A DNA stretch of 64,000 nucleotides from Macrophomina tecta (lineage: Eukaryota; Ascomycota; Dothideomycetes; Botryosphaeriales; Botryosphaeriaceae): the NCBI GenBank assembly GCA_024180945.1, contig JAKSGN010000002.1, positions 1,798,001 to 1,862,000 on the forward strand. Direction: 5' to 3'. The notes below the pieces were generated by a model, which searched no databases, was not told the origin of the DNA, and worked only from the letters and a program-made list of their open reading frames with translations. Positions within the stretch are counted from its first letter, which is position 1. Each line of letters begins with the position of its first letter. The position numbers and the translations under genes are program-made. Positions 3,803 through 61,099 of the stretch are shown piece after piece.

Positions 3803-5146
3803 CTAAAATGGAGGACAGTTCTGGATATCGGCCTGCGTGTACTGGCACTGTTGAGTTGGACCCTCACTGAGTCTTGCAGGATCATTAAAGGATGATCCAT
3901 CACCATCGATACCCGTACCATCAAACCGTGAACCAGAGCCGCTTCCGCCACCTCCGCCGGTCCCGCTACTCCGCGATTGCTCATCTCCTTCAGCAAGCTG
4001 AGCCGGTTGACCTGCATTGTCGCCACGAAGGGCTTGGTTGTTTGGCCCCCCTCCAACGCCTCCGCCACTATTCTGCGATACTTCACGCAGTCCAGCATTA
4101 CTTGTTCTTCCATTCCCAAGGGTTCCTCCCTGGAAGCCGCCACCACCCCCGCCGGTACCACTTCCGATACCACCACCGGCGCCGCTCCCTCCAAACCCAC
4201 GATCTCCAGCTCCTCCAAATCCAGCACCACCACCTCCCATGCCCACACCGCCGCTGGACCCACCACCCTCATAGCTGGAACAGACTCGGTCCACGCTCTG
4301 AGCGCATGATCCGACAATCATAGCCTGATCTCCAGAGTTTGCATTTAATCCCACAAGTTCCAACCCGTTGACCGCCCAGACATTCTCCAGCACAATATAG
4401 CGGTCTGACATATTCTCGCAGTCCGAGCAGGACCGGCAGATCTTACCAAACTGCTCCGCATAGAAGTTCCGAATCACAACCGTGCCCCCGCCATTGTGAT
4501 TCATGATCTTGTCGACGGCATTGAAGGCGCCGCCGCCGATGACGTAGCTGGTGCCCTGCTGCTGGCGGAAGGTGAAGGCATCCTCGCACACGTCTTCAAC
4601 CCAGATGTTCTCGAGCACGCAGTCTCCCTCACAGTGGATGCCCTCGATCTGGTTGGGGCCGATGACGCAGTTGCTGAGCGTGCCGCCGGGCGCGATGATG
4701 AAGACGGCGTTCTCGGGGCCTGTGTTGCCCTGGTCGTTGCACTGCATCCCGCGGTCATACTTCTGTCCCTGGCAGTCGAACTGGCCCTCCACGTATTGTG
4801 CCTGCTGGAGGACTTGCGCCGGGCTACCGAATTCGAAGGGAATCTGCGGTCCGCCGCCGGCACCTCCTCCACCTCCCATCCGGCCGCCGCCTCCGATACC
4901 AGTGCCGGCACCAGTTCCGCCACTACCAAAGCCTCCGCTGCCGAAGCGGCCGCCGTTGTTATTGTTGTTTGTGGCGGAGAGGTCGTTTGCACTACCCGGC
5001 TGGCGAGATCCGGCTCCCAGCTGGTTATTCAGCCCTTGAGGCTGCGTACCAGTGCGGTCATCCCCAGGCGGTACAACCGGCTGATTCTGGGCGAGTGTGT
5101 TGATAGTTGCGGAAAGGACGACGAGAGAGATTTCACAGAAATGCAT
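3803..5146 (-). CDS. Secreted pectate lyase, family PL3, with glycine-rich flanks
   Basis: This is a single exon of 447 residues beginning with a signal peptide (about residues 1-20, ending LAQ). The central part (about 105-300) matches the PL3 pectate lyase fold: the run NCVIGPNQIEGIHCEGDC, then WVEDVCEDAFTF, then a parallel beta-helix with many paired cysteines (CRSCSDCENM). PL3 enzymes cut polygalacturonate by calcium-dependent beta-elimination, and in fungi they serve plant cell-wall breakdown. Most PL3 proteins are about 220-260 residues. This one is much longer because an Asn/Gly-rich stretch (about 60-105) precedes the domain and a Gly/Ser-rich stretch (about 300-425) follows it, before a cysteine-containing tail ending NCPPF. 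The flanks may tether or space the enzyme at the wall. Family assignment is firm; the role of the flanks is unknown. Confidence 0.88.
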   Translation of the reverse strand: MHFCEISLVVLSATINTLAQNQPVVPPGDDRTGTQPQGLNNQLGAGSRQPGSANDLSATNNNNNGGRFGSGGFGSGGTGAGTGIGGGGRMGGGGGAGGGPQIPFEFGSPAQVLQQAQYVEGQFDCQGQKYDRGMQCNDQGNTGPENAVFIIAPGGTLSNCVIGPNQIEGIHCEGDCVLENIWVEDVCEDAFTFRQQQGTSYVIGGGAFNAVDKIMNHNGGGTVVIRNFYAEQFGKICRSCSDCENMSDRYIVLENVWAVNGLELVGLNANSGDQAMIVGSCAQSVDRVCSSYEGGGSSGGVGMGGGGAGFGGAGDRGFGGSGAGGGIGSGTGGGGGGFQGGTLGNGRTSNAGLREVSQNSGGGVGGGPNNQALRGDNAGQPAQLAEGDEQSRSSGTGGGGGSGSGSRFDGTGIDGDGSSFNDPARLSEGPTQQCQYTQADIQNCPPF

Positions 5147-6140: not shown

Positions 6141-6830
6141 GCAACCGTGGTTTCCCTGATTGATCTTGCAGCCGAGCTCCGTCAAAGAATCCTCGGGTTT
6201 GCAGTACCAGATGTGAACCGCATGAGTCAACTATGGCCTCAAGGCCTGCTCAACATTCTACATGCGTCTCAACACATCCGGGAAGACACGCATGAGACCA
6301 TGTCACCAAGGTCTCCCATGCATATCGTATCAAACCCAGAGCATCTGACCAACCTCAGAGCCCCGAAACCAACCAGTGGAAACTCAGGGCATGGCTCGAC
6401 ACTGGAACGCCTCTGCCTCGTTCTCTGCCAACAGTCTGGCGCCAAGCGCATTACGTGGATGTGCTACTGTAGTCGAGATACCGACGAATGGTTGCATACG
6501 GAGCTCATCCAAGCGTGGAACGACTCCGTGCACCAGCTTCCACCCAGCTTCAGCGCGGTGTATCTCGACGTTACACCTGCCCCCGAATGGATGAGTTCGA
6601 AGCCGCGGGACATTAACAACCCGTTCATCTATGATAAGAGGGCAGAGAGCACATTTCTGAATGCTCATATCGGGGATATCTCGTATCTGATCAGAGCGAT
6701 AAACCGGCACTACAAGGGCACAGTGGCTGTTCATCGGACGGGAAAGCTGAGCACTCGGAACCAGTTTTGTTCCCATCGGATGACAGAAAATAGCGCTAAA
6801 GCAGGAATCGGTATTGACTTTCGTGGATAG
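6141..6830 (+). CDS. Hypothetical protein with a weak F-box-like start
   Basis: An open frame runs to a TAG at 6,828-6,830. No ATG lies near its 5' edge, so a short upstream exon or a later ATG is possible and the 5' boundary here is approximate. The segment LIDLAAELRQRILGFA resembles the start of fungal F-box-like proteins (usually LPPELRxxIxxxx). It is followed by a Cys/Trp-bearing middle (WMCYCSRDTDEW) and a well-formed C-terminal part with VYLDVTPAPEW and DISYLIRAINRHYKG. Those latter segments look conserved, but I do not recognise the family. If the F-box reading is right, it could be a substrate adaptor of an SCF ubiquitin ligase. It lies between the pectate lyase and the RiPP cluster with no evident link to either. 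Confidence 0.45.
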   Translation, partial: ATVVSLIDLAAELRQRILGFAVPDVNRMSQLWPQGLLNILHASQHIREDTHETMSPRSPMHIVSNPEHLTNLRAPKPTSGNSGHGSTLERLCLVLCQQSGAKRITWMCYCSRDTDEWLHTELIQAWNDSVHQLPPSFSAVYLDVTPAPEWMSSKPRDINNPFIYDKRAESTFLNAHIGDISYLIRAINRHYKGTVAVHRTGKLSTRNQFCSHRMTENSAKAGIGIDFRG

Positions 6831-7491: not shown

Positions 7492-8208
7492 TTAACCCAC
7501 CGGCCTCGCCGGATACACCAATTTTGTTCTCCACTCATCCAGTCCACTTCTCAGTAAAAACATCTTCCCACAATGCCTGACATGCGCCTCTTTCTCCCTG
7601 GGCAAATGCATCACCGTCCCCGTCCACTCCCTCCTAAACTCCTTCAACAAACTAAAGTAGCAATGCGTGACGTGCTGCTCGTACGTGAACCACACTTGCC
7701 GGCCCGGCTCGACCATCTCACTCAGCTGCGTCGCGTTGACGCGCGCCAGCCTCCCGTCCGCCATCGCCGTCTCGTACTCCCACACGCCGCTGCTGCTCGC
7801 GCGGCTGAATTCGGCGGACAGCTCGCGGTCGATGCAGCGCGGGTTTAGCCAGGCCAGCTCGTGCTCGTCGAACTCGCAGCCACGCGCCAGCGCCGTCGCT
7901 GTTGTCGGGCCGCAGTGGCAGAGGACTGCGTCGTGCGTGAGGTGGCGGTGGAGTCGGCGGCATAGGTCGATGGTGCCCCAGATGGCGAGGCAGAGGAGGA
8001 TGGCACGCAGGAGGCCAAGGAGGATGCGGTGAGTTGATTTTTGTGGTCGGTGGCTCTTGCGGAAGTGTTCTGGGTCCTCGAGGTCTGCCGCCTTCGCATC
8101 CTGGGTGCTCACGTCGCTGTCACGCATCAATCCGGTCGTTGCATCGTCGGTTGTATCAGGCGTGCGGTGTGACCGTAATAGGCGCGTTGATAGTGCTTGG
8201 AGGTTCAT
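7492..8208 (-). CDS. Divergent UstY-type membrane protein (paired HxxHC), RiPP cluster
   Basis: This single exon encodes 238 residues. A polar N-terminal tail of about 60 residues precedes one membrane segment (62-81), and the rest should lie in the secretory lumen. The lumenal part begins with a Cys-Gly and GCEFDEHELAWLNPRC pattern (about 99-125) shared with the genes at 9,973 and 16,114. It carries two HxxHC motifs, HVTHC (179-183) and HVRHC (209-213). In UstYa/DUF3328 oxidases of fungal RiPP pathways, paired HxxHC motifs are thought to bind the metal that drives oxidative cyclisation of the core peptide. This protein shares that architecture but differs elsewhere, so I treat it as a distant relative. 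It diverges from the canonical UstYa gene at 8,607 across 398 bases, which suggests co-regulation. A role in modifying the precursor at 11,355 is inferred. Confidence 0.8.
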   Translation of the reverse strand: MNLQALSTRLLRSHRTPDTTDDATTGLMRDSDVSTQDAKAADLEDPEHFRKSHRPQKSTHRILLGLLRAILLCLAIWGTIDLCRRLHRHLTHDAVLCHCGPTTATALARGCEFDEHELAWLNPRCIDRELSAEFSRASSSGVWEYETAMADGRLARVNATQLSEMVEPGRQVWFTYEQHVTHCYFSLLKEFRREWTGTVMHLPREKEAHVRHCGKMFLLRSGLDEWRTKLVYPARPVG

Positions 8209-8606
8209 TGTGGATCCTTCTTTTTTTACGGGATGGCTCGCAGCAGAGGAGATGCGTGAGCGGGTTGTGGTTGTGAGTCTAATACGGCTTTCTGCTCCCA
8301 GTTCATGTTAGTCGTTACCGTATATCATAGTAAAAGAGCGGAAAAGTATACGTTACTATCCAGAACAGGCGATCAGGTGGATGATGTGTATCATCGGGCC
8401 GCCCTCGGTCTCGCGCGGCAACTATATGAATGCTCTCGGATGTGCAGCGGACCATGACTCGCTCCAGCCGAACCATTAATCTCCCTCCGGATGTTCCATT
8501 CTTCGATCTACTATGAAACTTGGTTGAGATACACCAAGAGCAGTGTGAAAACATTGCCCTGGAGTCGGCCAGCGTTCATCATATTCCCACCCCAAACTAA
8601 ACGACA
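8209..8606. promoter_or_regulatory. Bidirectional promoter between two UstY-type genes
   Basis: These 398 bases lie between two divergent start codons (8,208 minus and 8,607 plus) and contain no gene. The arrangement makes a shared promoter likely. I could not identify a specific regulator site by eye. Confidence 0.5.
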
Positions 8607-9427
8607 ATGGCATCACAGCGCAGCTCTGTACCTAGCATCTTCACTATCTTGTTGTATGCTGCAAGTGCTGTTGCCTTAGCTGTTCTTTCTGCATTGTCGA
8701 CTTCTGTATTTTACCTTCATTTGAGAGCTATACACGACAATGTTACTGTGAAAAAGGTATCTCAAGACCATTTGGCGGACGATACTGGTACTTTGCCTTC
8801 CTGTAAGACTTGTTCCATCAATCAAAGGTTACCTTGCTTCTGCTAACCTCAAGACACAGCCTCTCGTCAAGCAAGAGTGTTCTGGAATAGCTCTGAGTTT
8901 GGCCCTAGGGCGCACAGTATGGAGGATATTGACGAAGCCGCCATTCTCAAAAAATGGAAGTCATTGCTACCACGTATGTCATATAAATCTTTTAGACAAT
9001 CACTATAACTAAAGTAACTCTGACAGCAGGAAATGGTGTGTTGAGTGCCAGTAACTCTAGGAAGGAAAAAGAGTCACATCAAACAGATAGGGTGGTCTCC
9101 GTTTTCCACCAGATCCACTGCCTGGTAAGATATCATCTTGGTTTGCAGCTGTATTACATGTACTGATTTAACTAGTACTCTATACTGAGCGACTACTTAG
9201 ACCTACGCAGTGGAAAACAATTAGGAGGTGAAAAGGAGTATTCTTTGCAATGTTTCAACTATCTGAGACAATCACTGCAATGTTGCGGGGATACAGCCTT
9301 GGAAGGATCTGACATATACGCTGCTGCAGAAGGTAGAAATGGGACCTTGGGAATTGGATCAACACACGTTTGCAGAGACTACGAAGCTATACTGCACTTT
9401 GTGGAATCATCCCCTCAGGTACTATAG
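8607..9427 (+). CDS. UstYa/DUF3328-family oxidase-like protein with a degenerate second motif
   Basis: The gene has four exons: 8,607-8,802, 8,860-8,973, 9,027-9,124 and 9,176-9,427. They give 219 residues, a normal UstYa length. A membrane segment lies at about 10-37. The lumenal part has the family landmarks: a Trp-containing segment ending LLP (about 100), then SVFHQIHCL with the first HxxHC at 131-135, and later NYLRQSLQCCGDTALE with the final CRDYEAIL. UstYa proteins are membrane-bound oxidases that form macrocyclic bonds in dikaritin peptides such as ustiloxin. Oddly, the second motif, normally HxxHC before the YLRQ segment, reads YSLQC (157-161). Both histidines are gone, so this copy may be inactive or need a partner. 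It is divergent from the gene ending at 7,492 and in tandem with the one at 9,973. Confidence 0.88.
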
Positions 9428-9972
9428 CTCGAATCTGGACAAAGAAAAAACCATGGATTACAAATGTAAAGCCCGTGAAGGGGTTGTGCTACAACATATG
9501 GAGGAGCAGTTACCACCCACAAGAACGTCGCAAGGTCCCAGCGCTAAGCCCTGCGGTAGTGGTATGTGTCCTCGGAAGGCCGACTCAGCTTTCCGGCATT
9601 CAACCGGGTCCCGGGACGATAAAAGCCACTTTTCGGGTGAACGAGTCATACAACGGCTACGTGAAATCCAGGAGAGCCCAGGAAATACGACTGAATCAAG
9701 GTTATCACCAGTTCCCGAGCAAGTTCCCACTTCAGGTCGGAGGAGCACATGTGTCGTAAGTGACATTGCCTTTCAGGGGCAGAGTCCGACAAGGAACAGT
9801 ATGTAATAGCTTCCGCAATTCAGCCGCTAACTCCAACTTGTGATACATTGATGTTTTCATACTCAGAAAGTATAGCATCACCATCACCATCATTACAAAC
9901 AACAACAACATATCTAAGCTCCAGCGTCGGTTCACTTTTTTCTTTGCCCAAGGCGAAGGACAAGACACCATA
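9428..9972. other. Intergenic leader of the 9,973 gene
   Basis: An open frame of about 130 codons crosses 9,370-9,759, but it overlaps the UstYa gene and has no recognisable features. A short run of repeated cat/cac and aac triplets at about 9,886-9,912 lies in the probable 5' leader of the next gene. Confidence 0.45.
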
Positions 9973-10671
9973 ATGGAACTTAGGGAGCAGAGCAGCCGTC
10001 TTCTACGGGAATATCGAGCAACAAATACTCATGGAGAACCTGGGGCTGTGGAGCCCTCCTCAATACCCAAATATGCCCTGCACCTAGCATGCGGAGCACT
10101 TCTCACAATTATCGTGCTCATCCTCGCTTCCATCTTCTCCACTCTGGCCGCTCTGCAACAAGTATCTGCATCATCAACAATACTGAAGAAGGGCCAGTCT
10201 GACCCGCGCGACTGCGGTCACAACGCGACCACCGCCATGGCAGCTGGTTGCGTCTACGACATCATGATGGTGGGCTGGACATCTCCGGAATGCTTCGACG
10301 CCAAAGTCTCGCAGGACGCGCTGTCCAACTCCTCTAAGCTGGCGCCTGTGGGCGGCGCGGGCACGTTCGAATGGGCCACCGACAAGCACTTCACTGACCT
10401 AGTGCCGCAGACGCCCGAGCTGGGCAAGCACGAGTGGCTATTCGCGCACTACGGCTTCCATCGTGCGCACTGCGCGTACGTGTGGAGAGTTTTGGTTGAT
10501 GCATTGGAGCGGAGGGAAAAGGGGGAGGAGGATGTGTTTGTGTATAAGCAGGCGCTGCGATATGAGCATGCGGTGCATTGCAGCAAGGTGTTGATTGAGA
10601 GGGAAAGGAATCTGGAGGCGCCGACGATGTTGGAGGTCAGTGGGGTCAATAAGTGTGTGAGGCTTCCGTGA
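9973..10671 (+). CDS. Divergent UstY-type membrane protein (paired HxxHC), RiPP cluster
   Basis: This is a single exon of 232 residues. One membrane segment spans about 35-60. The lumenal part opens with the DCGHNATTAMAAGC pattern and TSPECFD, which aligns by eye with the genes at 7,492 and 16,114. The two HxxHC motifs are HRAHC (163-167) and HAVHC (199-203), with the spacing of the other two divergent members. By analogy with UstYa-type proteins it may bind a metal and take part in oxidative modification of the cluster peptide in the secretory pathway. Its 3' end faces the 3' end of the precursor gene 683 bases away. The short ATG-proximal region lacks a cleavable signal peptide, so a membrane anchor is expected. 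Function is inferred from motifs and location. Confidence 0.82.
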   Translation: MELREQSSRLLREYRATNTHGEPGAVEPSSIPKYALHLACGALLTIIVLILASIFSTLAALQQVSASSTILKKGQSDPRDCGHNATTAMAAGCVYDIMMVGWTSPECFDAKVSQDALSNSSKLAPVGGAGTFEWATDKHFTDLVPQTPELGKHEWLFAHYGFHRAHCAYVWRVLVDALERREKGEEDVFVYKQALRYEHAVHCSKVLIERERNLEAPTMLEVSGVNKCVRLP

Positions 10672-11354
10672 GAAGAAGTGATGCATTTCCGTTCGAAAAA
10701 TTGGTAGTCAATGAACGGATGGTACGCTCTAAGACCCACCGTCTATCGATTCACTTTCCATGGCCATGCAACTCCTAGAAGAGGCTCGTCGGGTATCTGC
10801 GGCGTTCGGGGGTTCAGCGCACTCGGTTTCTATGTGTAACCGTAGCATCTTCCGCGTAGTTTGAGGATTTCCGTTAAAGTGGCATTTCTTGCCTGCAATT
10901 CTCGTCTGCAACAGTCGAAAATTTTTTTATTACAAATAGTATTGCATATGGGAAAGCTTTATGGCCCAGATAGTTCTTCAAGTGAAGATAGATCATGTGT
11001 AGACGATACAACATGCTTGGTTGCAGCGACATCTACAGGCCTATATTGATTCGAATCTTACAGAAACAACCTCAATCAGAATAGGCGATACACGGGAAAG
11101 GGAGTAAAAGCCTACAGCGCATATTATTATTGATTCAGAAGCGAGTATCGGTTGCCTTCCGCTAAGAGACTCTGAAACGGTTTGATTCGGTTGAGTGAGG
11201 TTGGTGTCGGCTACATATATTGATTTCCACTGAGGCGGAGCGTTTCGATATGAGAGATAATTGAATCAAGCCAGCTCTAGTAATTCTATAGCAGGCACAT
11301 ATGTATTGGAAAAAAGGCCTGGTGCTGGCAGGCCAGTGACAGGGTACCTGTGAC
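10672..11354. other. Convergent 3' region before the precursor gene
   Basis: No gene was seen. The region holds the 3' flanks of the 9,973 gene (plus) and of the RiPP precursor (minus), and is AT-rich in its middle. Confidence 0.5.
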
Positions 11355-11863
11355 TCACTGGTCCACCTTCTCATGAGAACCATCATCGGTGAAGATGTAG
11401 TCAGTGGAAAGGTCATCGCCAAGACCGCGCTTCTGGTCAACCTTCTCATGTGAACCATCATCGGTAAAGATATAATCGGTAGACAGATCGTCACCAAGGC
11501 CACGCTTATGGTCGACCTTCTCGTGAGAACCATCATCAGTGAAGATGTAGTCAGTCGAGAGGTCGTCACCCAAACCACGCTTCTGGTCGACTTTCTCGTG
11601 AGATCCGTCATCGGTGAAAATATAATCGGTGGAAAGATCATCACCGAGTCCGCGCTTCTGATCCACCTTTCCGTGGGAACCATCGTCCGTAAAGATGTAG
11701 TCAGTGCTCAAGTCATCACCGAGACCCCTCTTCTGGTCCTGTTTGTGTGAAAATTCTGTTATCGCGTGGTTGGGCTTGGGTAACTTACAACTTTCTCGTG
11801 GGATCCATCATCTGTGAAGATGTAATCGGTGGACAAGTCGTCTCCAAGACCGCGTTTCTGGTC
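11355..11863 (-). repeat. Tandem 75-base repeats in the precursor gene
   Basis: The repeats encode 25 residues each. Within the last exon the copies alternate in synonymous spelling: copies 1, 3 and 5 use ACT GAC TAC before the core, while copies 2 and 4 use ACC GAT TAT. This points to a 150-base two-unit duplication step on top of the basic 75-base unit. Confidence 0.85.
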
Positions 11864-12095
11864 CTATGTGGTGTCAGTAGGTGGACAGAAGCAAAAAGGA
11901 GTACAATGATGACGTGCCACTTTATCGTGGGAACCATCGTCCGTGAAAATGTAATCAGTCGACTTGGTTACGATTAGTTTGTGAGTTTAGGTCTTGAAGT
12001 GGAGCTGCACATACCAGGTCCGCACTGAAATCTTCCTTAGGGAGGGGGATCGCCGCAACGAGGGAAGAGAGCAAGAGAACGGAGAAAGTCTTCAT
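11355..12095 (-). CDS. RiPP precursor peptide, seven YIFTDDG core repeats (dikaritin type)
   Basis: I splice four exons: 12,095-12,015, 11,962-11,918, 11,863-11,789 and 11,738-11,355, giving 194 residues. Residues 1-15 or so form a signal peptide (MKTFSVLLLSSLVAA). The rest is seven repeats, mostly of 25 residues, each with the invariant core STDYIFTDDGSH. Six are followed by a Lys-Arg pair, the classic Kex2 cut site, and the spacer after each site is GLGDDL. This is the architecture of dikaritin precursors (ustiloxin, phomopsin and asperipin families), in which a Tyr-led core is released and cyclised by UstYa-type oxidases. YIFTDDG differs from the cores I know. Variation between copies is confined to the follower (D, E or G before KV; Q or H before KR). 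All introns are phase 0, and intron 2 (11,917-11,864) has a GC donor. A bioactive product is likely but not shown. Confidence 0.9.
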
Positions 12096-12923
12096 CTTGG
12101 TGGGATTGGAGTAATTGCACTGAAGGATTGATAGAAAACAACTTGTTCGTTGAAGTGATGAGAGAATATTTGGCTGGACCTGTTCAATCCTGCAGCCTAC
12201 GGTGCGCTGTACTTATGGTGCACTGTGCCTGCGCATCTCCACCGTTTCCAAATGCGGAGCGCCTATATCACGAGCGCCAGCTCAGATACAATACTTGCCG
12301 GCAGAGACCAACGACAGTTCACGTGCTTCCGTAGGAAGTAGGGTGCCTGAAGGGCCTCTTTCGGCTCAGCTGCCGTAGTCAGTGCTTATGGAAAGGGCTA
12401 CCGAAATACGGGCGCCCAAGGAGCGTAGCCGGCACTTGAATGTACAGTAGCCGGACTCGTGCATGGCGTCTCGGATTTCTATACGCCACTCGGCACACTA
12501 TTGTGGGTCTTTTCGGTTGAACTAAGTCATAGGCGTTTCGGATCCGATTGCATATCCGCTATGAAACGTTTCTTATTCGTCGCATGGCTTCGTTATGGAC
12601 GACCATTTCCGAAGTCGGGGTGCGGCCAAATTTGCGCCTTCGATCCCCAAAGGCTTACAGGGAAGTTATTTCAGCTCAATGGCTATCGCTCAAAGGGCCT
12701 CGGTGGCTCTGCAAACTATCTGAAAAAGGGCCAAGAGGCACTACCACACATTCGAAAATTTTCATTAGACTAGGTACTGCTTGACGCACCTTCGTCTTGA
12801 AAGATAAGAGCCTTTGAAACGGAATATAGCAGTTATTGCCTCTAAAATTATGTATATACATTGAATCAGGAGTTCTATATATGACCGGAAAGGAAGATGA
12901 ACCGCAGCAGATATGGCCTTATC
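12096..12923. promoter_or_regulatory. Precursor promoter region
   Basis: No gene was found in these 828 bases. The right part is the 3' flank of the subtilisin gene and the left part is the promoter and leader of the precursor, both read leftward. A CCAAT pentamer lies close to the precursor start, and the start context (CACCAAGATG) is good. I could not recognise a regulator site with confidence. Confidence 0.5.
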
Positions 12924-15703
12924 CTAAATGAAATGTAACGTGAACGGAGCAGTTTCTATGCAATCTCTCATGGAACTCACATCATCGAGGCTCTCCCACG
13001 CGTGCATGGCACAGACTCGAAATTTGTAATCACCCTCTGGAGCCCATGAGCCATTCCCTAACCGGCCCTTCCAAAGCTCATATGTCGTGTCAACTCGATT
13101 GAAGCCACCTGGTTGTGCAGTTACGTTTGGCCCGAATGCGGGGATTCCGCAGCTCTCACTCTTGACGCACGAGACTGACGCAGAGACCAGATTAATTGTG
13201 ACAGCACGTGAGAACAGACCGAGCTTGAGAACGACGGTAGGGAATTTGATCTCGGCAGACTTTCTGGAAGCTCCATCCGGACCAGGCACAGTGAAGACGG
13301 TCAGGGGGCTGATAGGGGGCGCCTCGAAGCTCTCTTTATAAGTTTCGGCTTCGGTTGCTGCAGTCAGATATGTGCCGTTTGCAGCGTGCTCAGACAGTAC
13401 GACGACATCCTTCAACGCACACCCGATGCCTCCGTAGGGGATGCTGAGGGCTTCGGCGGCACTGCTGTTGCTTTTCAGGTTGAGGTAGCCGCCATAAAGA
13501 GGGCAGCGTCTGGAAAGAGCAGCCAGTGCTCCCACGTCCGCGCGGACTGTCGCAGTGACTGAGGAACCGGGTTTGATAGTAATAATGGCCGGGACAATGC
13601 TAATTTTGACTTTGCTGTCAACTTGAAAAGTCTCAAGGAATTCTTTGCTCGCAAGCAATGAACCCTCTTTGCGAGTCCAAGGTACGAAATACGAGTCATT
13701 ATTCGCTAATGACAGCACACCGGCAGCTGGGCTGATCGAGGTAGTGTATACCAGTGTCTCGTTACCCAGGTTTGTTATGGTGACTTCCTCATTGCCGGTG
13801 AAGAACAGGGTGTCATTGAACGAAACGCTGGGCACGGTGGGGACTACCTTTGCGCGCACGGCGGCCAGAGGTTGAACAAGCCCGCCACCTTGTTGCCATA
13901 CGGGCGCAAGAGATTCATAAGTTTTGTTGGTCCCGTCGCTGAACTGGATTGGCTTAGCGGTGCTGACAAGAAGATTGACAATCTGGCTGGCCTTGAGCCC
14001 TGGACGTGCCTGCTTGACAAGCGCAACGCAACCTGCAACATAGGGAGCAGCCATCGAGGTACCCGAGAGAAGGCCATAACCTCCCCAGCTTCGGGGGAAT
14101 GTTGAAAAGACGTTGCTACCAGGAGCGGCAAGTGACGGCATAACATTTGCTTCTCCTGAAGGGCCCCACGTACTGCGTCCGTTCATCCTCCCCCCTGGCA
14201 AGCTGCCGTTGGCCACAGAAAAATATGGAACCAGCGTGAAGTTGGAATCCATCATCATTTCGACTTTTTCCCCTGCTGCAAGCCGTCTGACCAGCTCGAT
14301 GCCAGTTTTCTGAGTCAACGAGCCAGCCCCCACCAAACCTGCAATGTCATTGTCGTACTCGAAAAGTGCACCCTCCGTGTTGTCGTATGCCAAAAAATAG
14401 CGGCCGCCAGCGTCGACCACATTCTTCATCTTCTCAGCAAACTTGCAACCACCGCGGCGTACGAGAATAACAGATCCGGATATATCTACATCTGGGCGAA
14501 GGGGATTGCAGGCGTCATTTGCTACTGTAGTGTCCAAACTGAGCGCACGTAGCGGAAGCGATTCAGGGAATCTCCCGGGGGTAGCTGGTGCCCATGGAAA
14601 TTCGTATTTTGTTCCATTGATCCGGTAAAAGCCTCGAGGACGGCTGGATATTACGTGATCGGTATTGACAGAGCCCACGGATAAAACACCTGGGCCGGAA
14701 GCCGGGGCATCAGCGGTGAAGGAGCCTTCAGTTCCATAATTTCCAGCAGCCACCACGCAAACTGTCTTGCCTTCCTCAACGATCTTTGTAAAGAGCATAG
14801 AAACTGGATCTTCAGACGATCAGCGAAAGTTCGCACAAACGATTATCGGGACTTACCGTCCGGAAAAGGGCCAGTGCTGAGCGATATAGAGGCGGATATG
14901 ACATCAGCGTTGTTGTTGTATGCTTCGAGTATCGCTTTGATGATGATATCTGACTCCAACGGGGCTCTTCCGCATCCCGCGACACGGTAGTGGTGTATCT
15001 GCGCTCCCGGGGCCACACCCACAAAGCCAATCGAGGAGTCGTTCCCAGCTGCGATACCTGTGACATGTGTACCGTGATACGTGCATTCGGTCCACGGATC
15101 TGCATCTGGGCTTGGAGGTGCTGGCTTCTCCCAGTCGTCCCCAACGAGATCTCGGCCGCCGCTCACTTTGAAACCTGGACCGAAACCGCCGCCAAGTGCT
15201 GGATGCAGGTAGTCCACCCCAGAGTCGATGATAGCGATGGTAATCCCCTCTCCAGTGATGCCTCCCTGGTGGAGCTGCTCAACGCCTGTCATCTTGTGCA
15301 TGTTGTTGGCATTGAAGATGCCTTTGGCTGCTTCTCTAGATTCGTCCTGAGACGCGAGCTTGTGAGCCCTTGTCGACCAGACCTGTACTACCCCACTGAT
15401 GGACTGAAGGCATGCCAAGGTTGTGCCGAGAGGCTTTGACGCCCCAAGCTCTAAAGATATTCCGGAGAATATGCTGCTTTCCAGCTCATGGCGAATTAAC
15501 ACTTTTTCGCCCTTCAGGCAGGCAATAGTCTTATCATTGATCGCATTTTTGAGACCATGGATTTTCTGTCATATATATTCAGGTCAGTTCCAGTAAATGA
15601 ATATTTAATAAACACTAACCTCAGCCGCCTCAACCTCGAGAATGTATTGCAGGGCAGAGACCCTGGCAATAAGTGCTGCAAAAACGAGTGGATGAGCTAT
15701 CAT
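12924..15703 (-). CDS. Secreted subtilisin-like serine protease (S8, PA and Fn3-like domains)
   Basis: Three exons (15,703-15,620, 15,565-14,857 and 14,803-12,924) encode 890 residues. A signal peptide covers about 1-17, followed by a short prodomain to about 120. The catalytic domain has Asp in AIIDSGVDYLHP (142), His in YHGTHVTGIAAG (195), the oxyanion Asn in VAAGNYG (286) and Ser in LSGTSMAAPYVAG (514). A protease-associated insert (about 350-450, ILVRRGGCKFAEKM) sits between the oxyanion Asn and the catalytic Ser, and an Fn3-like region follows (about 600-720). This is the layout of Vpr or C5a-peptidase-like subtilases. All catalytic residues are present. It lies head to tail with the RiPP precursor, 828 bases upstream, and diverges from the UstY-type gene at 16,114. 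It could trim the Kex2 products, but a general nutritional protease that happens to be here is also possible. Confidence 0.9.
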
Positions 15704-16113
15704 TTGTCCACGCCGGAATTTCATTGTCGACTTCACGGCTCAAACAACTGCGAGGGTGCGGCTGTGTTGGTCTGTTAGTAAAGTGCGGCAGGCAAAGGAC
15801 CAATTGTCCGTGTATGCACCGGCAGGGGTCGGTAAACGAAATTGAGTGTGGCTCAGGTACGGAACATGACTGGTGTATCCGATAATCCCAGCTTAACGCT
15901 ATCCGAAGACAACAAGGGCTCTCTAAATACAGGGCTTTATGTCAAGCAGTGTCCAGGGGCTTCCCAAACCTGTTTCGTTCCACAGAAGAGACCCGCGCCG
16001 GCCCTGCATTCCAGACAAAAGAGGCACGAACCGTGTGCTCATCCAACTTATTATTTTTTTTCTCACTATCCGGCTCTATTAGTCTATCCTTTTCAGTCCT
16101 TTGAGTTTTCTCC
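15704..16113. promoter_or_regulatory. Bidirectional promoter, subtilisin and UstY-type gene
   Basis: These 410 bases separate two divergent start codons (15,703 minus and 16,114 plus). The 60 bases before 16,114 are strongly C/T-rich, as in many filamentous fungal promoters. No gene was seen inside. Confidence 0.5.
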
Positions 16114-16767
16114 ATGCCGACTCTCGATTCATTGGAAAACCGGCTCAATTACATACCCACGGTCCGGGACCACCAATACAAAAAACTAGTCAATCGGGAT
16201 GAACCTTCTTCTGAATCATCCGATGGATTAAGAACTTGGGCTCTCCGAAAAGCGCTCTGGCACTACATTCTTCTTTTTGTAATTGCCGTGAGCGGGCTAT
16301 TTCTTGTGGGTATCTACGCCGGCGCGGACGAACCCCTATACGCTTATGATAAAGTCGATCCCCGCTCAAGGAGATGCGGCAAAACAGCTGCCGAAGCACG
16401 CGCCCGTGGTTGTCACTTTTCACCTGTGTCCTTCGCTTGGCTTCCGGAAGAGTGCATGGATCGAGAGCTAGATGAAGAATTCCGAAATCTCCACTGGACG
16501 CTGTACTCCGATGTCAACAAGACCAGGATTAAGACGGAGGACGAGTTCGCGGATGACCTAACGGACACGTTCCTAACTAATGAGAACCATGTTCTCCACT
16601 GTGTTTACTCGTGGAAGAGGATGCATCGAGCGATCATCGCCGGGAAGACACTACACACTGGCTTGAGCTACCATCATACTGAGCACTGTGGGATGGTCAT
16701 GAGTACGCCTTGGGAGGACCCAAAAGCTATCATCACGAGGGCATTAGTCATTTACCCTGGGTGTTAA
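16114..16767 (+). CDS. Divergent UstY-type membrane protein (paired HxxHC), RiPP cluster
   Basis: This is a single exon of 217 residues. A polar cytosolic tail precedes a membrane segment at about 49-69. The lumenal part has RCGKTAAEARARGCHFSP and AWLPEECMDRELDEEF, which match the equivalent blocks of the genes at 7,492 and 9,973. The HxxHC motifs are HVLHC (159-163), followed by YSWKRMHRAI, and HTEHC (188-192). Proteins with this block order (CG, GCxF, WxPxxC, then two HxxHC) are frequent in fungal genomes and are often unannotated. I infer a relationship to UstYa-type oxidases from the shared double HxxHC and single-anchor layout. Sharing a promoter region with the subtilisin ties it to the cluster. 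Confidence 0.82.
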   Translation: MPTLDSLENRLNYIPTVRDHQYKKLVNRDEPSSESSDGLRTWALRKALWHYILLFVIAVSGLFLVGIYAGADEPLYAYDKVDPRSRRCGKTAAEARARGCHFSPVSFAWLPEECMDRELDEEFRNLHWTLYSDVNKTRIKTEDEFADDLTDTFLTNENHVLHCVYSWKRMHRAIIAGKTLHTGLSYHHTEHCGMVMSTPWEDPKAIITRALVIYPGC

Positions 16768-17090
16768 TGAGAATGTGATGCAATGAATTTGTCCCTACGA
16801 CGCTGTTGGGCATGCCAAGTTTCTTTTTTCCACTGTTCGGCTGCATGCATAGGGACACTTTGTCACAACCGACTCGCCAATCTGAATCAGATGGGCCGTA
16901 AATGTGCTAAAATGTGTTCTCTCGGATAACATGACGTCGTTTGCCGAAAGCCCCGCTCACGGGCCGTTTTTGACTCGTCAAGGACACGAAGTGCCACGGT
17001 CGGAGAATTTGGCTGAAGAATACCATATCGAGGCTTGGACGCCCGTGTCCAGCCTCGTTTGCAGATCGACACACCATTTTGTTGCAACAT
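16768..17090. other. Upstream region of the DMT transporter
   Basis: A 71-codon open frame (16,904-17,119) with an internal ATG at 16,932 overlaps the transporter start in another frame. It could belong to an upstream exon, but I cannot show that. Otherwise this is probable promoter sequence. Confidence 0.4.
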
Positions 17091-18287
17091 ATGTCCCTCC
17101 TCCAGGCGAACATGAATAGCCATCTAGGCTCTGAGAAATCCAGAGGCTCCCATGGCACAAGCTTTCACAAGTGTAGCAAAAGTCTGCTATTGGTATTGGC
17201 ATCGCAATGCCTTTCCATACTGATCAACACTACGGCAAGATTTTTGGTTGCCGGTGCATCCAACGTGCACCCTTTCCAGCTGTTGAATGTTCGCATGCTC
17301 ATCACTCTTGTGCTATGCGGTGCATACCAGCTATATAGGTGGAATGATGACGTCTTTCCTGGACCAAAATCAATTCGCGGTCTACTTATGATTCGGTCAG
17401 CTGGCGGCATCCTTGGGGCTGTTGGATTTTACAGGAAGACCACCTTTAGTCCCAGTTACACATGTTACTAACAGCGCACTCAGGCTCGTTGCAATATCTT
17501 CCCCTTGCTGAAGCGACAATTCTGAACTTCCTGGCTCCTCTGGGCTCCCGTTTGGCCATTGCCTTTTTGAGTGGCAATAGAATATCCAAGGCTGAAGGAT
17601 TTCTATTTTCTTGTCCTTTACCGGCGTCATCCTCGTATCCAAGCCTGCCTTTCTGCTTTCTAAATCCAGTGGGCAAATGGAGCAGGGTATTATGAGCCCG
17701 CTTGGATTTGCGCTGGCCATGCTTGGAGCCTTTGGAGGTGCTGTATGTCTTGAGACGTCCATATTCTTATATCCGAATGATCTGACCAACTACAGTGCGC
17801 TTATACGACTATATCCGTGATTGGAACCCGTTGCCACCCTCTTACAAGCGTTATGTACTTTGCAGGGGGCCTTTTCATAACAACAAGCATAGCCATGTCC
17901 ACTTTGCCAAATGCTACTTTTACCTTTGCGCTTCCAGTTTCGAGCTGGCTCATGATACTACTAGTAGGTATCCTCGGCGTTCAGATGGTAAGAGCGATCA
18001 ATATATCACCACAGATCTCCAACTGACGTCATAAGGATTATCTTCTTACATTAGGTCTCTCTGACGATCAATCTCCCCATGGCATTAACATGATATATCT
18101 TCAAGTAGTAATGACTTTCATAGCAGATTGGGTTGTCTGGAGCACAATCCCTGACATTATTTCAATATTGGGTGGAGTTTTGGTGGTTGTGGGTATAGTA
18201 GCTATCGGATATTCGCAAGATTCATCCAGAAAGTTTGAACAGGAAGGGTTCGAAGCGTTAGGCCAAGATGACACCGGAAATGCCTGA
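17091..18287 (+). CDS. DMT/EamA-type transporter, probably frameshifted
   Basis: The pieces belong to the fungal DMT (EamA) superfamily of ten-helix exporters. Recognisable segments are SLLLVLASQCLSILINTTAR, SIRGLLMIRSAGGILGAVGF, SLQYLPLAEATILNFLAPL, FTGVILVSKPAFL, CAYTTISVIGTRCHPLTSVM and WSTIPDIISILGGVLVV. Two introns fit well: 17,742-17,792 and one ending just before GATTAT at about 18,037. Two joints do not. Near 17,450 the frame can only be kept with an intron of about 29-35 bases, shorter than usual. Near 17,590-17,610 the frame changes with no GT-AG intron available, so a one-base indel or sequence error is likely. The start at 17,091 is the first in-frame ATG. If functional it would be the candidate exporter of the cluster peptide; as read, it looks broken. 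Confidence 0.7.
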
Positions 18288-18780
18288 ATTTTGCCGTCTA
18301 TCTCGCAATATAGCAGGGACAGTCTTTGATTGACATATAGTACAGCTACAGTTTCAAATAAGAGGCAAGTTCTTAGGTTGATGCGATGCCTACCATCTCA
18401 CGGAATTGCGAAGTGTGTCGGTATTTTCCGATCCATGCTGTCTTATTGTCAGGATGCATCTGCTTGCCCCTATTTTTCTGCGCGACCCCCTGAGCACTTT
18501 CAGGTCCCGGATCCAGTTGCGCTACGGTTTACTCCATACGACAAGTTCGGGCTGTTCAATGCTTCCGAGGCAGAGGTCCTGAAGGAATTCACTCGAGTCA
18601 AGAGACGACATGAGGCCGAAGCTCGTCATGCACGAGCCCCAATAAGGTTCTGGCTCCGATCAAGGATCCGATAAGTCGGCCTCATTCGGTCAGCCTCCGG
18701 ATAAGGCTGAGTCCATTAGGGGATATTGGTTGACAACAGAGAACCTCTCCCCCACATCGTCCCAGGGAGCAATCAACAGC
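18288..18780. other. Region with one unrecognised open frame
   Basis: An open frame at 18,330-18,674 (plus) ends in a basic tail and includes PDPVALRFTPYDKFGLFNAS. Its composition is gene-like, but I do not recognise a family. It may be a small gene or a fragment. The remainder is the promoter of the next UstYa gene. Confidence 0.3.
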
Positions 18781-19963
18781 ATGGGAGGAAAGCAAACTTA
18801 CACCGCACTGCGAGCATCTTCATCTGATGAGAATATATTACCTGTTGGAATATTTGATTCAGTAGTGTTTTGGATTCAGTTATGTCTTATACTCGTTGCA
18901 CACCTGTCTCAGCAGGTAAGCAAGTTACATACCCGTTTTACCCTAGTAGGTAGAATAGGTATAAGGGAAGCCCGTACGGCCTCCCTCTACTAGATATGCC
19001 AAATCTATGGGAACTCATCTTCATCAGTTGAATCAAGGCTGCCAATTAGTCATTTTCCAACATTACCTTATACACATTCGGACGAGGCGTCCTCACAGTG
19101 CCCGAATTTGCATTCCCAGAAGCTAAGTCGGAAGCCTCTGCGGATTTTATATGCATTTGTTGTCCTATTCACTACAACGGCGATTCTCCCGCTGTTCTTC
19201 GCCTCCACCTTGCTGTTCCTAAGGGACAACACAGAGAATTCAGTGTCTTACGCTTCGAGAGAAATCCATCTTTCAGACGAAATTAATGGGCTGATCCCAT
19301 CATGTACGTTCCATTGTTGAATATACGATATAGAAGTACTAATGACTGTGCAGTTACAAATCGGCAAGTAACATTCACGAATGTTTCGCAGTATTGGCCG
19401 TCATCAGCTCCCTTAGAGGAAGTGTCAGAGGAAGAATGGAGCAGTGTATTCCAAATGTGGCATCATCTTGCACCACGTGAGTATCTCAGAGCACACTCAG
19501 GAAGATGCTATTCCGCTGACCCTCATGCAATGGAAAAGACGGTGGTGGGTTCCTCCGAGTAGATGAACCTGAAAGATTCATTCTTCCTCCACCACTTAAG
19601 ATTGACCGGCCGCCTAAGAACCCCAGTGTCTACTCCATGTCTGTCTTCCACCAGGTCCATTGTCTTGTGAGGCTGCCCTACCCTTGTTGTATGCCCTATC
19701 AGAATGAATTGAAGCTGATTGTCGCACATCAGTCATCGATTCTCCATGATTTCGTGGGAATGAGCGCTGGTGAGCCTGCTAAGGGCCCTCTGAACCACAT
19801 CATACATTGTTTCGACTACATTCGACAAGCATTGATGTGCTGTGGCGATACAACGCTTGAACCCGCCCAACCGAATTCGAAATTTGGAGATGGAACAGGA
19901 ACAACAAGAATGTGCAAGGATTGGGATGCGATCCTTGAGTACGCAAAAGCAAATGTACCGTGA
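18781..19963 (+). CDS. UstYa/DUF3328-family oxidase with both HxxHC motifs
   Basis: The exons I can support are 18,781-18,915 (start less certain), 19,120-19,303, 19,354-19,476, 19,539-19,666 and 19,733-19,963. The N-terminal QTYTALRASSSDEN is typical of the cytosolic tail of UstYa proteins. A membrane segment follows (ILYAFVVLFTTTAILPLFFA). The lumenal part has all landmarks: GGGFLRVDEPERF, SVFHQVHCL (first HxxHC), HIIHCFDYIRQALMCCGDTT (second HxxHC) and CKDWDAILEYA. This is the only canonical family member here with both motifs intact, so it is the best candidate for the core cyclase of the cluster. UstYa-type enzymes oxidatively cross-link Tyr side chains in ustiloxin-like peptides. The 200-base gap between the first two exons may hide another small exon or a later start. 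Confidence 0.87.
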
Positions 19964-20462
19964 TAATGCACTAAAGATTACAAACTCATGGTCAGCGGAG
20001 CGGTTGTCTTTCACTTCGCCCGCCTAACGGTTGTGCCTTCAGATTCGCTACTGTCATAAGATAAATTGCGACGGTATAGTGGAAGCTGTCATTCGAATTT
20101 GAAACCCTCACCATGTCAAAGGCATTCATAAGCTCATCGTGGTTACGGCTCTCCCCGTATTGACTTGCCTTGCACCAAACTCACAATTTATGATATTCCG
20201 CATACCTAAAGTAGATGAAGTGAAGCAGAAGACTCCACAATATCTCCGAGGGTGATTGTGGTCAATACGGAGACATATATAGAAGTACTGGAAGAGAGAA
20301 ATATATACACAACTGCGTTAAGTTTTGCTCAGAGTCAGAGCTCGATTACAGCACACTTCATTTGAAGACATATGCAGCGCTCGAGACAAGCGGAACAAAG
20401 TGGTAAACGCATTTCTAATCTGTTACTGCCTTAACTCCGCCCCTTTTTCCACTGTTTCTGCA
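19964..20462. other. Convergent 3' region
   Basis: This lies between the 3' end of the UstYa gene and the 3' end of the Zn2Cys6 regulator. No gene was seen, and both terminators should lie here. Confidence 0.5.
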
Positions 20463-22940
20463 TTATACCGTTCTCTGAGCTAGCCTATTGATGTTTTTCA
20501 TCTCATCGACGGGAACGCTCTCAATATAGCCGGAAAGGTGAGCGTAGGCCGCCGTTGCGCCTGCCAGCGCAGCGAGGCATTCCCTCCGCGGTCGGCGAAG
20601 ATCTCCGACCTGTAAGCCCATCGCATTGGTCTGAGACAAGTTGTAGTAAACGATGGCCCTCGCTATGCATGGTAGTCCGAGATGGCTTCTATTATATATG
20701 TTAGCAGCGATACGCCAAGTGTGTTATATGTGTGTGTGTTGAAATAATGTGGCGCATGTCGACGTACGTATTGCCAAGAAGGTGGTTCGGGTCCAGAGTA
20801 ATAAAGAGTTGCAGAAGGTTTAAAGGCGAAGATTGGCATCTTTGTGTGCTTTCAAAGAGGTCCTCGTTCGTGTGCAGTGGCAAGTCCGAAAAGTGGGAAA
20901 GTAGGCTACGGCATCGGCCGTGAATTGTGAAGATAAGTTCGTGGTACATCCAAGAAAGCTTGATGCCGAGGAGCAATTCTTCTGATCTTGCACTCGTGGA
21001 AAGGTAGTCGGGCCTCGCGGAGTCGATAGTCCTCAAAGGTACTGGTAGCGAGCCCCTCCACTGGTCAACCAATTCGTAGAGGCACGCTGCTCTCTTCAAC
21101 ACAATTGTAGCAGGCTGATTCAACATGCCATGGATGTGTAGGTCTTTTGCAATACTTGCCGCAATTTTGGCATGCCTACATTGCGCAATGAGCCATGTAG
21201 AATGATTTAAATGGTATAGCTCAGTAGGGCTACCAGGCCCGCGGAAATCAACTAGGAGGTGATCCATCATCTGGTGCGAGGTAAGCAATGGTAAGGTAAA
21301 GCTCAGGATGGAATTACCGAAGGTCTTCCCAAACCGATCTTATGGTGGACCTCTAAGCTATACAGAGCCCAGATGGCGCGGCACAACATCGTACCATCCT
21401 CTTGGAGTCGCCTATCAAGCTGCTCTATTCCTCGGATCTTTGAAATCGACATGAGGTCGACGCATTGCACAGCATTGTAAATCAGCATTTTTTACCAGAC
21501 TTGGAACACTCTTTTGAGCAAAATCAATCATAGCAAGCAATGCCTGAAGATGTTAGCGGGCTCTCATACTTAGTTTCAGAGAATCAGCCTGAAGCTTACA
21601 TGCAGCTCCATCGCACTTTGACTGCCGGATATCAGGGCTGCGCGCTGGTCAAGCGCGGTTTGGAAGTAAATTCGGCAGTCCATGAAATCTTCGGAAAGAA
21701 GAACGCCTCGATCTTTGATTGTATGGATGAGTGCGCCGTTCGCCAGTAGGGCATTCACAAGAGCAATATGCGCAGGTTGCCAAATTGTTCCATCCAACAT
21801 TTGAAGCGCAAGCTTATCGACATATGTCCGATCGAGGTAGCGGAGAACTCTGTTATGATTAGTATATTTCTCGCAGGTACACTATTGGTTCTGCAGATAC
21901 ATACCCATGAATTTCACTATAGCATGCTACAATGGTAAATCAGCATTCACACAATATGATTCTTGTTAAGGAACCTTTACCGTCAAGATATTTCCAAACC
22001 AGAGAAGCCTGATATAAATTTTGATCATGCTGGATTTCCACGCGCTCTATGGGCAATAAAGCTATCGTAGAGCTGGCTTGAATCATGTGGGAAATGCGTG
22101 CATCTCCTGTATCATATTGTTGGCCATCACACCCCGGCAAGGACGTAGGTGATGATGAATAAAGAGCAGCGGTGCTGAAGTCCAAGTCTCGAGCTTCTAT
22201 TTCCGGCTCACGTGAAGTGATGTCGAAGGAAAAGTCATACCAATCCAAGCCATCTGCCGAAACTGAATTTTGAACATCCGTAGAGCTGGCACTCATTGAA
22301 TCTGATGAGCCATCTAGCGGTATTGTATGAGGTGGCATATTAAGGCAACAGGTGTTGGATTCCGACCTTGCAGCGCCGGTTTTCCTCGTCTCATCGTTCC
22401 AGAAGGCAGCGGCTGAAACGTCCACGGTGATGTTTGGAGTCAGAAGTTCTGAGCTGTAATCCCTTACGAGCGCGCACGAACTCATAGTATCCAGAAATGC
22501 TGCGTCAACATCGTAAATTTCAGAGGGACTAGATGCGGGGTATTCAGTGATGATTAGGGTCCTAGACGCCGGCGTGAATACATTTCCGCATGGCATTCTG
22601 CTTGACGCCGGATTTGATATTGGTGAAGTGAAATGCCTTGATGAAGATAGGCCCACTTCGGGGAAAGGGTGCCCCGTCTGGGAGAGGGGGTAGAGACAGC
22701 GTGGCTCATTGCTTCGCTGTCATCGTGTCAGTGATTCTCTACGGTACCATGGTGTCGTTGACTGGATGGGCGCTTACGACAAAATTCCACACAGGGGATT
22801 TTTGCCGTCGCCTGTTGATTGATCTCAGCTTGAGCGTCCTTGACTACATGGGGACAACGAAACCAACATTTGATCTTCCGCCTTTTACAGGTCTCACAAG
22901 CTCCACGCCGTCTTCTGTATACTTTCCTCGAGGTGTCCAT
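20463..22940 (-). CDS. Zn2Cys6 transcription factor, zinc cluster possibly disrupted
   Basis: The start at 22,940 opens MDTSRKVYRRRRGACETCKR followed by RKIKC, the first half of a Gal4-type Zn2Cys6 cluster. An intron (donor GTTGGT, acceptor CAACAG) follows the third Cys and leads into DGKNPLCGI. The fifth cysteine expected directly after that is not in this frame. It appears only one frame over, next to an A4 run (plus strand 22,781-22,784), so a one-base indel or an unusual splice is suspected. Downstream exons (about 22,650-21,940, 21,800-21,576, 21,488-21,303, 21,288-20,701 and the last ending at 20,463) give a Ser/Thr-rich middle and a fungal_trans-like region, with TIWQPAHIALVNALLANGAL and a C-terminal YYNLSQTNAMGLQVGDLRRP. 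Its place at the cluster edge suggests a pathway regulator. Exon boundaries are approximate. Confidence 0.75.
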
Positions 22941-59792: not shown

Positions 59793-59922
59793 GGTCGTTG
59801 TGTTGCTACTCGGACGGATCAGATGGTTGGACAAAGCTTCCAAACCATGATGGGCTGAAAGCTCAGCCTCGGGGACTTATATTGCGCAGCTGCGCCTGAA
59901 TGCTACAGTGCTGCACTGCTTA

Positions 59923-59952
59923 CCGCACCCGTGCAAAAGTCAGGGCGCACGG
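59923..59952 (+). repeat. Left terminal inverted repeat of the mariner element
   Basis: These 30 bases match the right end exactly in inverted orientation. TA precedes them. Confidence 0.95.
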
Positions 59953-60010
59953 ACGTGCACGAGTCAAAACAACAACGTACCCTCTTCATCCCTTGCCTCA
60001 TTACACCACC

Positions 60011-61099
60011 ATGCAGCGCATCTTTGGACGCGAAATTTCAGGCAATGCTAGGCAAAGGCATCAGCTTTCACATGATCAACGAGTTTCGGTTATTACACAA
60101 TCGCAAGATGGTAAATCTGGGCGTCAAATTGCCCGTGAGACTCGCTTCTCAGAACACGCAATTAGGAGCTGCATCAACCACTACAATACGACTGGCCAGA
60201 TTGATCTAACACCTCGTACTGGCCGTCCCCCCAAAGTCAGCCTTCGCACGGAGCGCCAGATTATTCGTTTTGTTAACCGGTTCCCAAAACTTAAGCACAG
60301 CCAGGTGATTAAGCAACTCCAGTTATCTATCCATAAAGATACGCTCAGGCGTATTCTACGCAAGAACCATATTACCAAATGGCGTGCAAAGAATCGGCCT
60401 TGGATCTCTCAAGCGAATGCCCGCATTCGGTACCAATATGCAAAGAAATACCGGTATAAGAGCTGGAGATGGTGGATGAGGGTTACGTTCGGTGATGAGT
60501 GCTCAGTTGAGCAGGGCTCTGGCCACGCACCAAGCTGGGTTTTCCGTACGCCTGGCCAGCAAAAGTGGGACCAAAGCCGGCTTAATACACGGCCACTTGG
60601 CAAGAAGGCAAGATGTATGGTATGGGGTGGCTTTTCAGGCCAGCTAGGGGTGTCTGATTTACACGTTATGGAGCGTGATTTGGACTCTCCTAGGCAAGGC
60701 TATACTGCCAAATCCTATATCAAAGTACTGGAGGAACAGGTGCCAAGAAACTACGACTATGGTATGTACTGGTTACAAGATGGTGCTGGTATTCATCGGG
60801 CGAACCGGGTGAAGAAATGGCTGCGTGATCACCAAATTAGGTGCATTACTCACCCCCCATACTCGCCTGATCTGAACCTCCAGGAATACCTTTGGTGGCC
60901 ACTAAAGATGAAGCTTCAAGAGATTGCGCCATTTATTGAGCTTAAGAAGAATCCTGAGCGCGTGGAGGCGTTACTAGCTGAGTGGTTACCTAGGGCATAC
61001 GCATTGGTGGAAAAACCAAGCCTTAAAGCGCTTTGTAAAAGTATGCCACAACGGCTTGTAGATGTTATTCAAGCTGGTGGCTATCAAACTCGCTGGTAG
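60011..61099 (+). CDS. Tc1/mariner transposase, DD34E
   Basis: From the ATG at 60,011 the protein has 362 residues. The N-terminal paired helix-turn-helix DNA-binding part (about 18-125) contains the GRPP hinge (71-74). The catalytic triad is D162 (FGDECS), D257 (LQDGAG) and E292 (DLNLQEYLW), with 34 residues between the second D and the E. The canonical PDLNPIE is here PDLNLQE, a small variation. The frame is uninterrupted, and the ends of the element are perfect. Transposase binds the terminal repeats and cuts and pastes the element into TA sites. The open frame continues upstream of the ATG past the left repeat, but translation from inside the element is far more likely. Confidence 0.95.
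   Translation: MQRIFGREISGNARQRHQLSHDQRVSVITQSQDGKSGRQIARETRFSEHAIRSCINHYNTTGQIDLTPRTGRPPKVSLRTERQIIRFVNRFPKLKHSQVIKQLQLSIHKDTLRRILRKNHITKWRAKNRPWISQANARIRYQYAKKYRYKSWRWWMRVTFGDECSVEQGSGHAPSWVFRTPGQQKWDQSRLNTRPLGKKARCMVWGGFSGQLGVSDLHVMERDLDSPRQGYTAKSYIKVLEEQVPRNYDYGMYWLQDGAGIHRANRVKKWLRDHQIRCITHPPYSPDLNLQEYLWWPLKMKLQEIAPFIELKKNPERVEALLAEWLPRAYALVEKPSLKALCKSMPQRLVDVIQAGGYQTRW

Follow-up and report, generated by a model that had tools for sequence, protein, structure and literature searches.

A probable UstYa-type RiPP gene cluster without a tyrosinase match in Macrophomina tecta, predicted to yield a Tyr-cross-linked YIFTDD-type peptide

The 64,000-nt stretch of the Macrophomina tecta genome analyzed here (C2:1798001-1862000 of a 54.1 Mb assembly in 37 contigs; hereafter the window) contains, at positions 7492 to 22940, what is probably a gene cluster for a ribosomally synthesized and post-translationally modified peptide (RiPP) of the UstYa-type, or dikaritin, class. 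No tyrosinase match lies in the locus; with a probability of roughly 77%, it represents such a cluster and would yield a Tyr-cross-linked peptide of the YIFTDD type. An initial annotation had proposed a cluster over the same span; its coordinates were correct and the assignment to the class is well supported, namely by a Kex2-type repeat precursor, two proteins matching the Pfam UstYa family, three further proteins with two HxxHC motifs each, a peptidase, and a gene model of Colletotrichum tabaci that links the core peptide to a homologue of one of these proteins (C). DUF3328/UstYa proteins define the dikaritins in their redefinition of 2021 (as reported in PMC12048977), and with two of them over the Pfam cut-off (B and H) the locus belongs, on this definition, to a known sort of RiPP cluster, of which its core, the lack of a tyrosinase match and proteins A, C and F make it a variant. 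The precursor combines a signal-peptide-like start, as judged by Kyte-Doolittle hydropathy, with repeated cores between KR sites. The older definition comprised five genes, tyrosinase and methyltransferase included (as reported in PMC12048977); of the transporter or peptidase that it names, an S8 peptidase is found over the cut-off and an EamA-like transporter only below it.

The precursor gene (11355..12095, minus strand) is modelled with four exons (12095-12015, 11962-11918, 11863-11789, and 11738-11355) encoding 194 aa. As initially annotated, it reads as a secreted precursor with seven Tyr-containing cores and Kex2 sites, secretion being suggested by the hydrophobic start: seven STDYIFTDD cores and six KR sites were found, with KR ending six of the seven units, and the protein is devoid of Cys. 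Comparison of the copies, using a simple per-codon count over pairs, revealed 113 synonymous and no amino-acid-changing differences for the 27-base core (21 pairs), and 234 synonymous against 14 amino-acid-changing differences for the 75-base (25-residue) unit (15 pairs of the six full units). At 23 of the 25 unit positions the amino acid is invariant and encoded by two or more different codons; positions 13 and 17, which vary, both lie outside the core. Such synonymous change combined with an invariant amino acid sequence argues strongly that the copies are translated and kept from changing. A degenerate DNA pattern for YIFTDD matched seven times in the entire genome, every time in the precursor gene, and a shorter pattern (YIFTD plus two bases) gave seven matches in the window and none in 100 shuffles. 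Concerning the gene structure, intron 2 is modelled as GC-AG and needs a GC donor, and introns 2 and 3 share one position within the repeat unit. Introns (window 11738-12095) occur only around the first repeat units and the later units are all located in one exon, so that the array looks as if it had grown towards its 3′ end.

The same core is found outside Macrophomina. A database search with protein C returned seven proteins, from Macrophomina phaseolina (98% identity), Colletotrichum cereale, C. truncatum, C. graminicola, C. tabaci, and two further sources. In the C. tabaci protein (P0007), a single gene model consists of a truncated C homologue running into four STDYIFTDD repeats, which were not seen in the other six homologues; the simplest reading would be that two neighbouring genes were fused by annotation. 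The nine core residues are identical between M. tecta and C. tabaci, while the flanks differ except for a common KV.QK pattern, the C. tabaci repeats being separated by QK..KR spacers. This conservation against diverged flanks would mark STDYIFTDD as the functional, conserved part, with the following G lying outside. Of the core YIFTDDG named in the initial annotation, the YIFTDD part was retained and the G was not, as it is not conserved and is replaced by P in C. tabaci; the core is better taken as STDYIFTDD, with YIFTDD as a probable final piece. M. phaseolina belongs to the Dothideomycetes and C. tabaci to the Sordariomycetes, so that, judged by these sequences, the core is linked to a C-type protein in a second fungal class as well. 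A joint query with A and F yielded eight proteins, all F-like by alignment, from M. phaseolina, five Colletotrichum species, Pyricularia grisea, and one further source, with the M. phaseolina protein again being 98% identical to F. The M. phaseolina counterparts of C and F are recorded with contigs of identical length (1,823,214 bases), presumably one and the same. No C or F homologue named as coming from another Dothideomycete was returned by these searches, and the patchy distribution would fit horizontal exchange or loss, two histories between which a search by shared words cannot decide.

Five proteins with HxxHC motifs flank the precursor. Two of them belong to the UstYa family: protein B (8607..9427, plus strand; four exons, 218 aa) and protein H (18781..19963, plus strand; multi-exon) match Pfam PF11807 over the cut-off with 59.4 and 73.3 bits, respectively. 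H, whose gene model is without its N-terminal exons, carries two motifs, HQVHC and HIIHC, and so combines the Pfam match with the twin motif, which was suggested as a mark of RiPP-related DUF3328 proteins in a lichen survey (PMC12048977); according to the same source, DUF3328 proteins occur in other pathways too. B shares the Pfam match and has kept only the first motif, HQIHC; its second site reads YSLQC, and of seven aligned sequences B is the only one in which Gln precedes the second Cys, this residue being His in the other six. The five proteins had initially been annotated as single-anchor HxxHC proteins: motifs were found in all five, one in B, and a strongly hydrophobic N-terminal segment is present in A, B, C, and F (Kyte-Doolittle).

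The remaining three proteins are encoded by single exons, namely A (7492..8208, minus strand; 238 aa), C (9973..10671, plus strand; 232 aa), and F (16114..16767, plus strand; 217 aa). A has a hydrophobic segment, two HxxHC motifs and no Pfam match; C and F also have two motifs each, with homologues in Colletotrichum and, for F, in P. grisea as well. None of the three gave a UstYa match against PF11807 at an E limit of 10, a limit that is only partly effective as the HMMER filters drop most matches above E ~0.1. Common to A, C, and F are Cys, Gly, and Trp residues together with both HxxHC motifs, and the motif positions show full or at least 90% conservation across 17 aligned sequences, with one protein (P0014) differing at both motifs. 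Profile-profile comparison of A/C/F with UstYa resulted in a probability of 82.7% for an alignment spanning both HxxHC motifs; for the F family and A alone the value was 70.8%. By these comparisons, A, C, and F are a separate family with remote similarity to UstYa. In the AlphaFold model, C has a long helix at its N-terminus and a domain whose HxxHC motifs are each located in a helix. When the genome was queried with A, C, and F, matches were obtained only here and at C31:2350331-2355636. That second locus (L009:6996-9135, L010:556-2814) comprises three A/C/F-type proteins, a UstYa match, and a transporter-like stretch recognized by eye; a scan for KR-separated repeats found no repeat precursor there, and the locus may have a single-core precursor or none.

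The same scan covered 16 stretches, that is the window, the C31 locus and 14 others of about 10 kb, and all 33 UstYa matches of the genome fall within them. Precursor-like arrays were present in four of them, the window included. In L011 (G000:C29:2981500-2991400) a KR-separated EPEYVWGGQKDKREAA-type array (EPEYVWGG) with at least nine copies lies on the minus strand at about 66-452 in plus-strand coordinates, near three UstYa matches. L013 (G000:C5:189500-199400), a stretch with UstYa genes, contains a KR-separated YVWAS array of at least 13 copies (minus strand, about 65-751 in plus-strand coordinates), and L019 (G000:C30:232000-241900) has five copies of a KR-separated RLLKYGD array near a UstYa gene (plus strand, about 6541-6762). 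The arrays of L011 and L013 are situated at the edge of their stretch and may be longer; both resemble the motif YVW[G/A][G/S] published in PMC6339444. Pairing of a gene for a Kex2-processed repeat protein (KEP) with a UstYa gene is thus normal for this genome. The A/C/F set beside a KEP gene, and the STDYIFTDD core, were found only at the window locus among the 16 stretches.

Further genes of the cluster are identified with varying clarity. Protein E (12924..15724, minus strand; exons 15724-15620, 15565-14857, and 14809-12924; 899 aa) is a subtilisin-type S8 peptidase with PA and fn3_5 domains, all over the cut-off, in which what we take to be the usual catalytic Asp, His, and Ser motifs are readable; of the secreted subtilisin initially annotated, the domains are confirmed, and the secretion signal was judged by eye only. 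The proposed EamA exporter (17091..18287, plus strand) is weaker: one exon matches below the Pfam cut-off, similarity is spread over several frames, and no more than four of six EamA-like stretches are retained by any open splice path found, for which decay, an assembly error or an unusual gene structure could be the cause. Weak as well is the suggested Zn2Cys6 regulator (20701..22940, minus strand), for which an open splice path exists and half a Zn_clus domain was matched below the cut-off (E 0.07), with no other Pfam match in the main reading frames. The absence of a flavin monooxygenase, as initially noted, agrees with the FMO search (33 matches in the genome, none in the window), and none of the three S41 matches of the genome falls into the window. 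The P450 search scored 92 of 480 candidates and permits no inference on the absence of P450 from the window. One proprotein-convertase P domain, as expected of Kex2, is present in the genome, on a contig other than that of the cluster (C27). The cluster is adjoined by a pectate lyase gene (Pfam, 225 bits) with a Gly-rich tail (window 3803-5146, minus strand), and a transposase with HTH_Tnp_Tc3_2 and DDE_3 domains is located on the right side of the window (59900-61099, plus strand).

Taken as a RiPP pathway, the locus would operate as follows. The precursor would enter the secretory pathway via its signal-peptide-like start and be cut after KR by Kex2, as is thought to happen in related clusters (PMC6514808, PMC9233826). 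The HxxHC proteins would then cross-link the core at Tyr by a UstYa-type oxidation; UstYa-type proteins take part in ring closure via the Tyr side chain in related clusters; a tyrosinase is present for ustiloxin and phomopsin, and the asperipin-2a cluster, of four genes, is without one (PMC6514808, PMC9233826). The simplest bond, analogous to the link between Tyr and Ile in ustiloxin and phomopsin, would be an ether between the Tyr oxygen and the beta carbon of the Phe two residues on. Trimming of the flanks, for which the clustered S8 peptidase E is a candidate, would leave a small cyclic peptide, in the simplest case YIFTDD minus two hydrogens with a predicted [M+H]+ of 771.32. Calculated [M+H]+ values for the linear peptides YIFTDD, DYIFTDD and STDYIFTDD are 773.3352, 888.3621 and 1076.4419, and after loss of two hydrogens 771.3196, 886.3465 and 1074.4262, respectively. 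H and A/C/F appear the likelier catalysts, and B may be a partner subunit since it is without the second HxxHC motif. The product could serve as a toxin, as a signal or in the control of competitors. We tentatively go one step further and suggest, as an idea that has rather less than even odds, that A, C, and F are undescribed membrane-anchored peptide-cross-linking metalloenzymes distinct from UstYa, which together with UstYa act on an STDYIFTDD core that is identical in Dothideomycete and Sordariomycete plant pathogens and was probably passed between them, and form a tyrosinase-free Tyr-Phe ring.

Several observations weigh against the assignment as a RiPP cluster. The genome contains 22 tyrosinase matches and the window none, as the initial annotation had stated, so that the locus lacks an element of the set used for cyclization in ustiloxin and phomopsin. 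B has a single HxxHC motif, no open splice path of the EamA-like gene keeps all six EamA-like stretches, and the model of C had no convincing match among solved structures, for which reason catalysis is inferred from motifs. A search with the precursor returned nothing, and no relative closer to A than to F was obtained, even from M. phaseolina, for which a gap in the annotation may be the reason. The C and F homologues of C. truncatum have distant locus tags (CTRU02_214836 and CTRU02_211227) on contigs listed with different sizes, which counts against conservation of the full cluster; those of C. cereale are on two short contigs and are uninformative on linkage.

If no cross-linking took place, the precursor would be a secreted KEP that yields an unmodified linear peptide resembling a hormone, pheromone or effector, with the HxxHC genes serving another pathway. 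We consider this unlikely: the lack of a tyrosinase match would agree with it, as would a KEP survey in which DUF3328 genes lie near 22% of KEP genes, so that most are without (PMC7329392), but five HxxHC genes flank the precursor on both sides, the core and the C homologue are linked in C. tabaci too, and the core holds Tyr, the content of which was 65.6% in repeats with cyclization neighbours versus 38.2% in those without (PMC7329392). Somewhat less probable still is a former RiPP cluster in decay, in which the precursor persists and at least one gene no longer works. The lack of an open splice path through all six EamA-like stretches, the missing second motif of B and the only half recognizable Zn2Cys6 domain point in this direction; they are opposed by seven cores that are identical in protein yet rich in synonymous change, by open single exons for A, C, and F and a reading frame of E that runs through three exons, and by the 98% identity of C and F to M. 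phaseolina proteins, and the EamA problem itself could stem from the assembly or from an unusual gene structure. That the repeats form a structural or cell-wall protein which is not cut into peptides seems very improbable, since KR ends six of the seven units, QK..KR spacers recur in C. tabaci, Cys is lacking and HxxHC genes are neighbours, even though secreted tandem-repeat proteins are, as is generally known, common in fungi.

Should the reading as a tyrosinase-free RiPP cluster prove true, the identity of a peptide in plant-associated fungi of two classes, with flanks that have diverged, would point to a defined target. M. phaseolina is the charcoal-rot pathogen of crops. At this locus, the function of UstYa-type proteins could moreover be studied where no tyrosinase takes part, and a second group of proteins with twin HxxHC motifs would be added, which the Pfam UstYa model does not detect and which genome mining that relies on it could miss. 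Neither YIFTDDG, YIFTDD, DYIFTD nor TDYIFT was found in the searched literature, and among the titles and abstracts listed there was no description linking Macrophomina with a RiPP. The motifs that section 10 of PMC6339444 prints as conserved do not include STDYIFTDD, nor does the main text of two KEP surveys (PMC7329392, PMC6339444) mention Macrophomina.

The architecture is similar to that described in these surveys. Like the phomopsin and ustiloxin systems, the locus combines a signal-peptide-like leader and repeated Tyr-containing cores between KR with UstYa-type (DUF3328) proteins, and peptidases occur in many such clusters (PMC6514808, PMC9233826). The initial claim that known clusters combine exactly such a set does not hold, as the window is without a tyrosinase match and three of its five HxxHC proteins have no Pfam UstYa match. 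The peptidase here is of the S8 type, with no S41 match in the window. In addition, ustiloxin and phomopsin cores read Tyr-X-Ile (YXIX; PMC7329392), whereas the sequence here is Tyr-Ile-Phe (YIFT). Asperipin-2a likewise manages without a tyrosinase, its four genes encoding the precursor, the UstYa-type AprY, a transporter, and a reductase (PMC6514808); its core FYYTGY has three Tyr, in contrast to the one Tyr, five HxxHC proteins, and S8 peptidase found here. Victorin, finally, is also a RiPP from a multi-core precursor of a Dothideomycete plant pathogen, Cochliobolus victoriae, and its ring uses a Phe side chain, as the predicted one would here, but in victorin a C-terminal Phe is bonded to an internal Leu and the peptide is chlorinated (PMC9233826).

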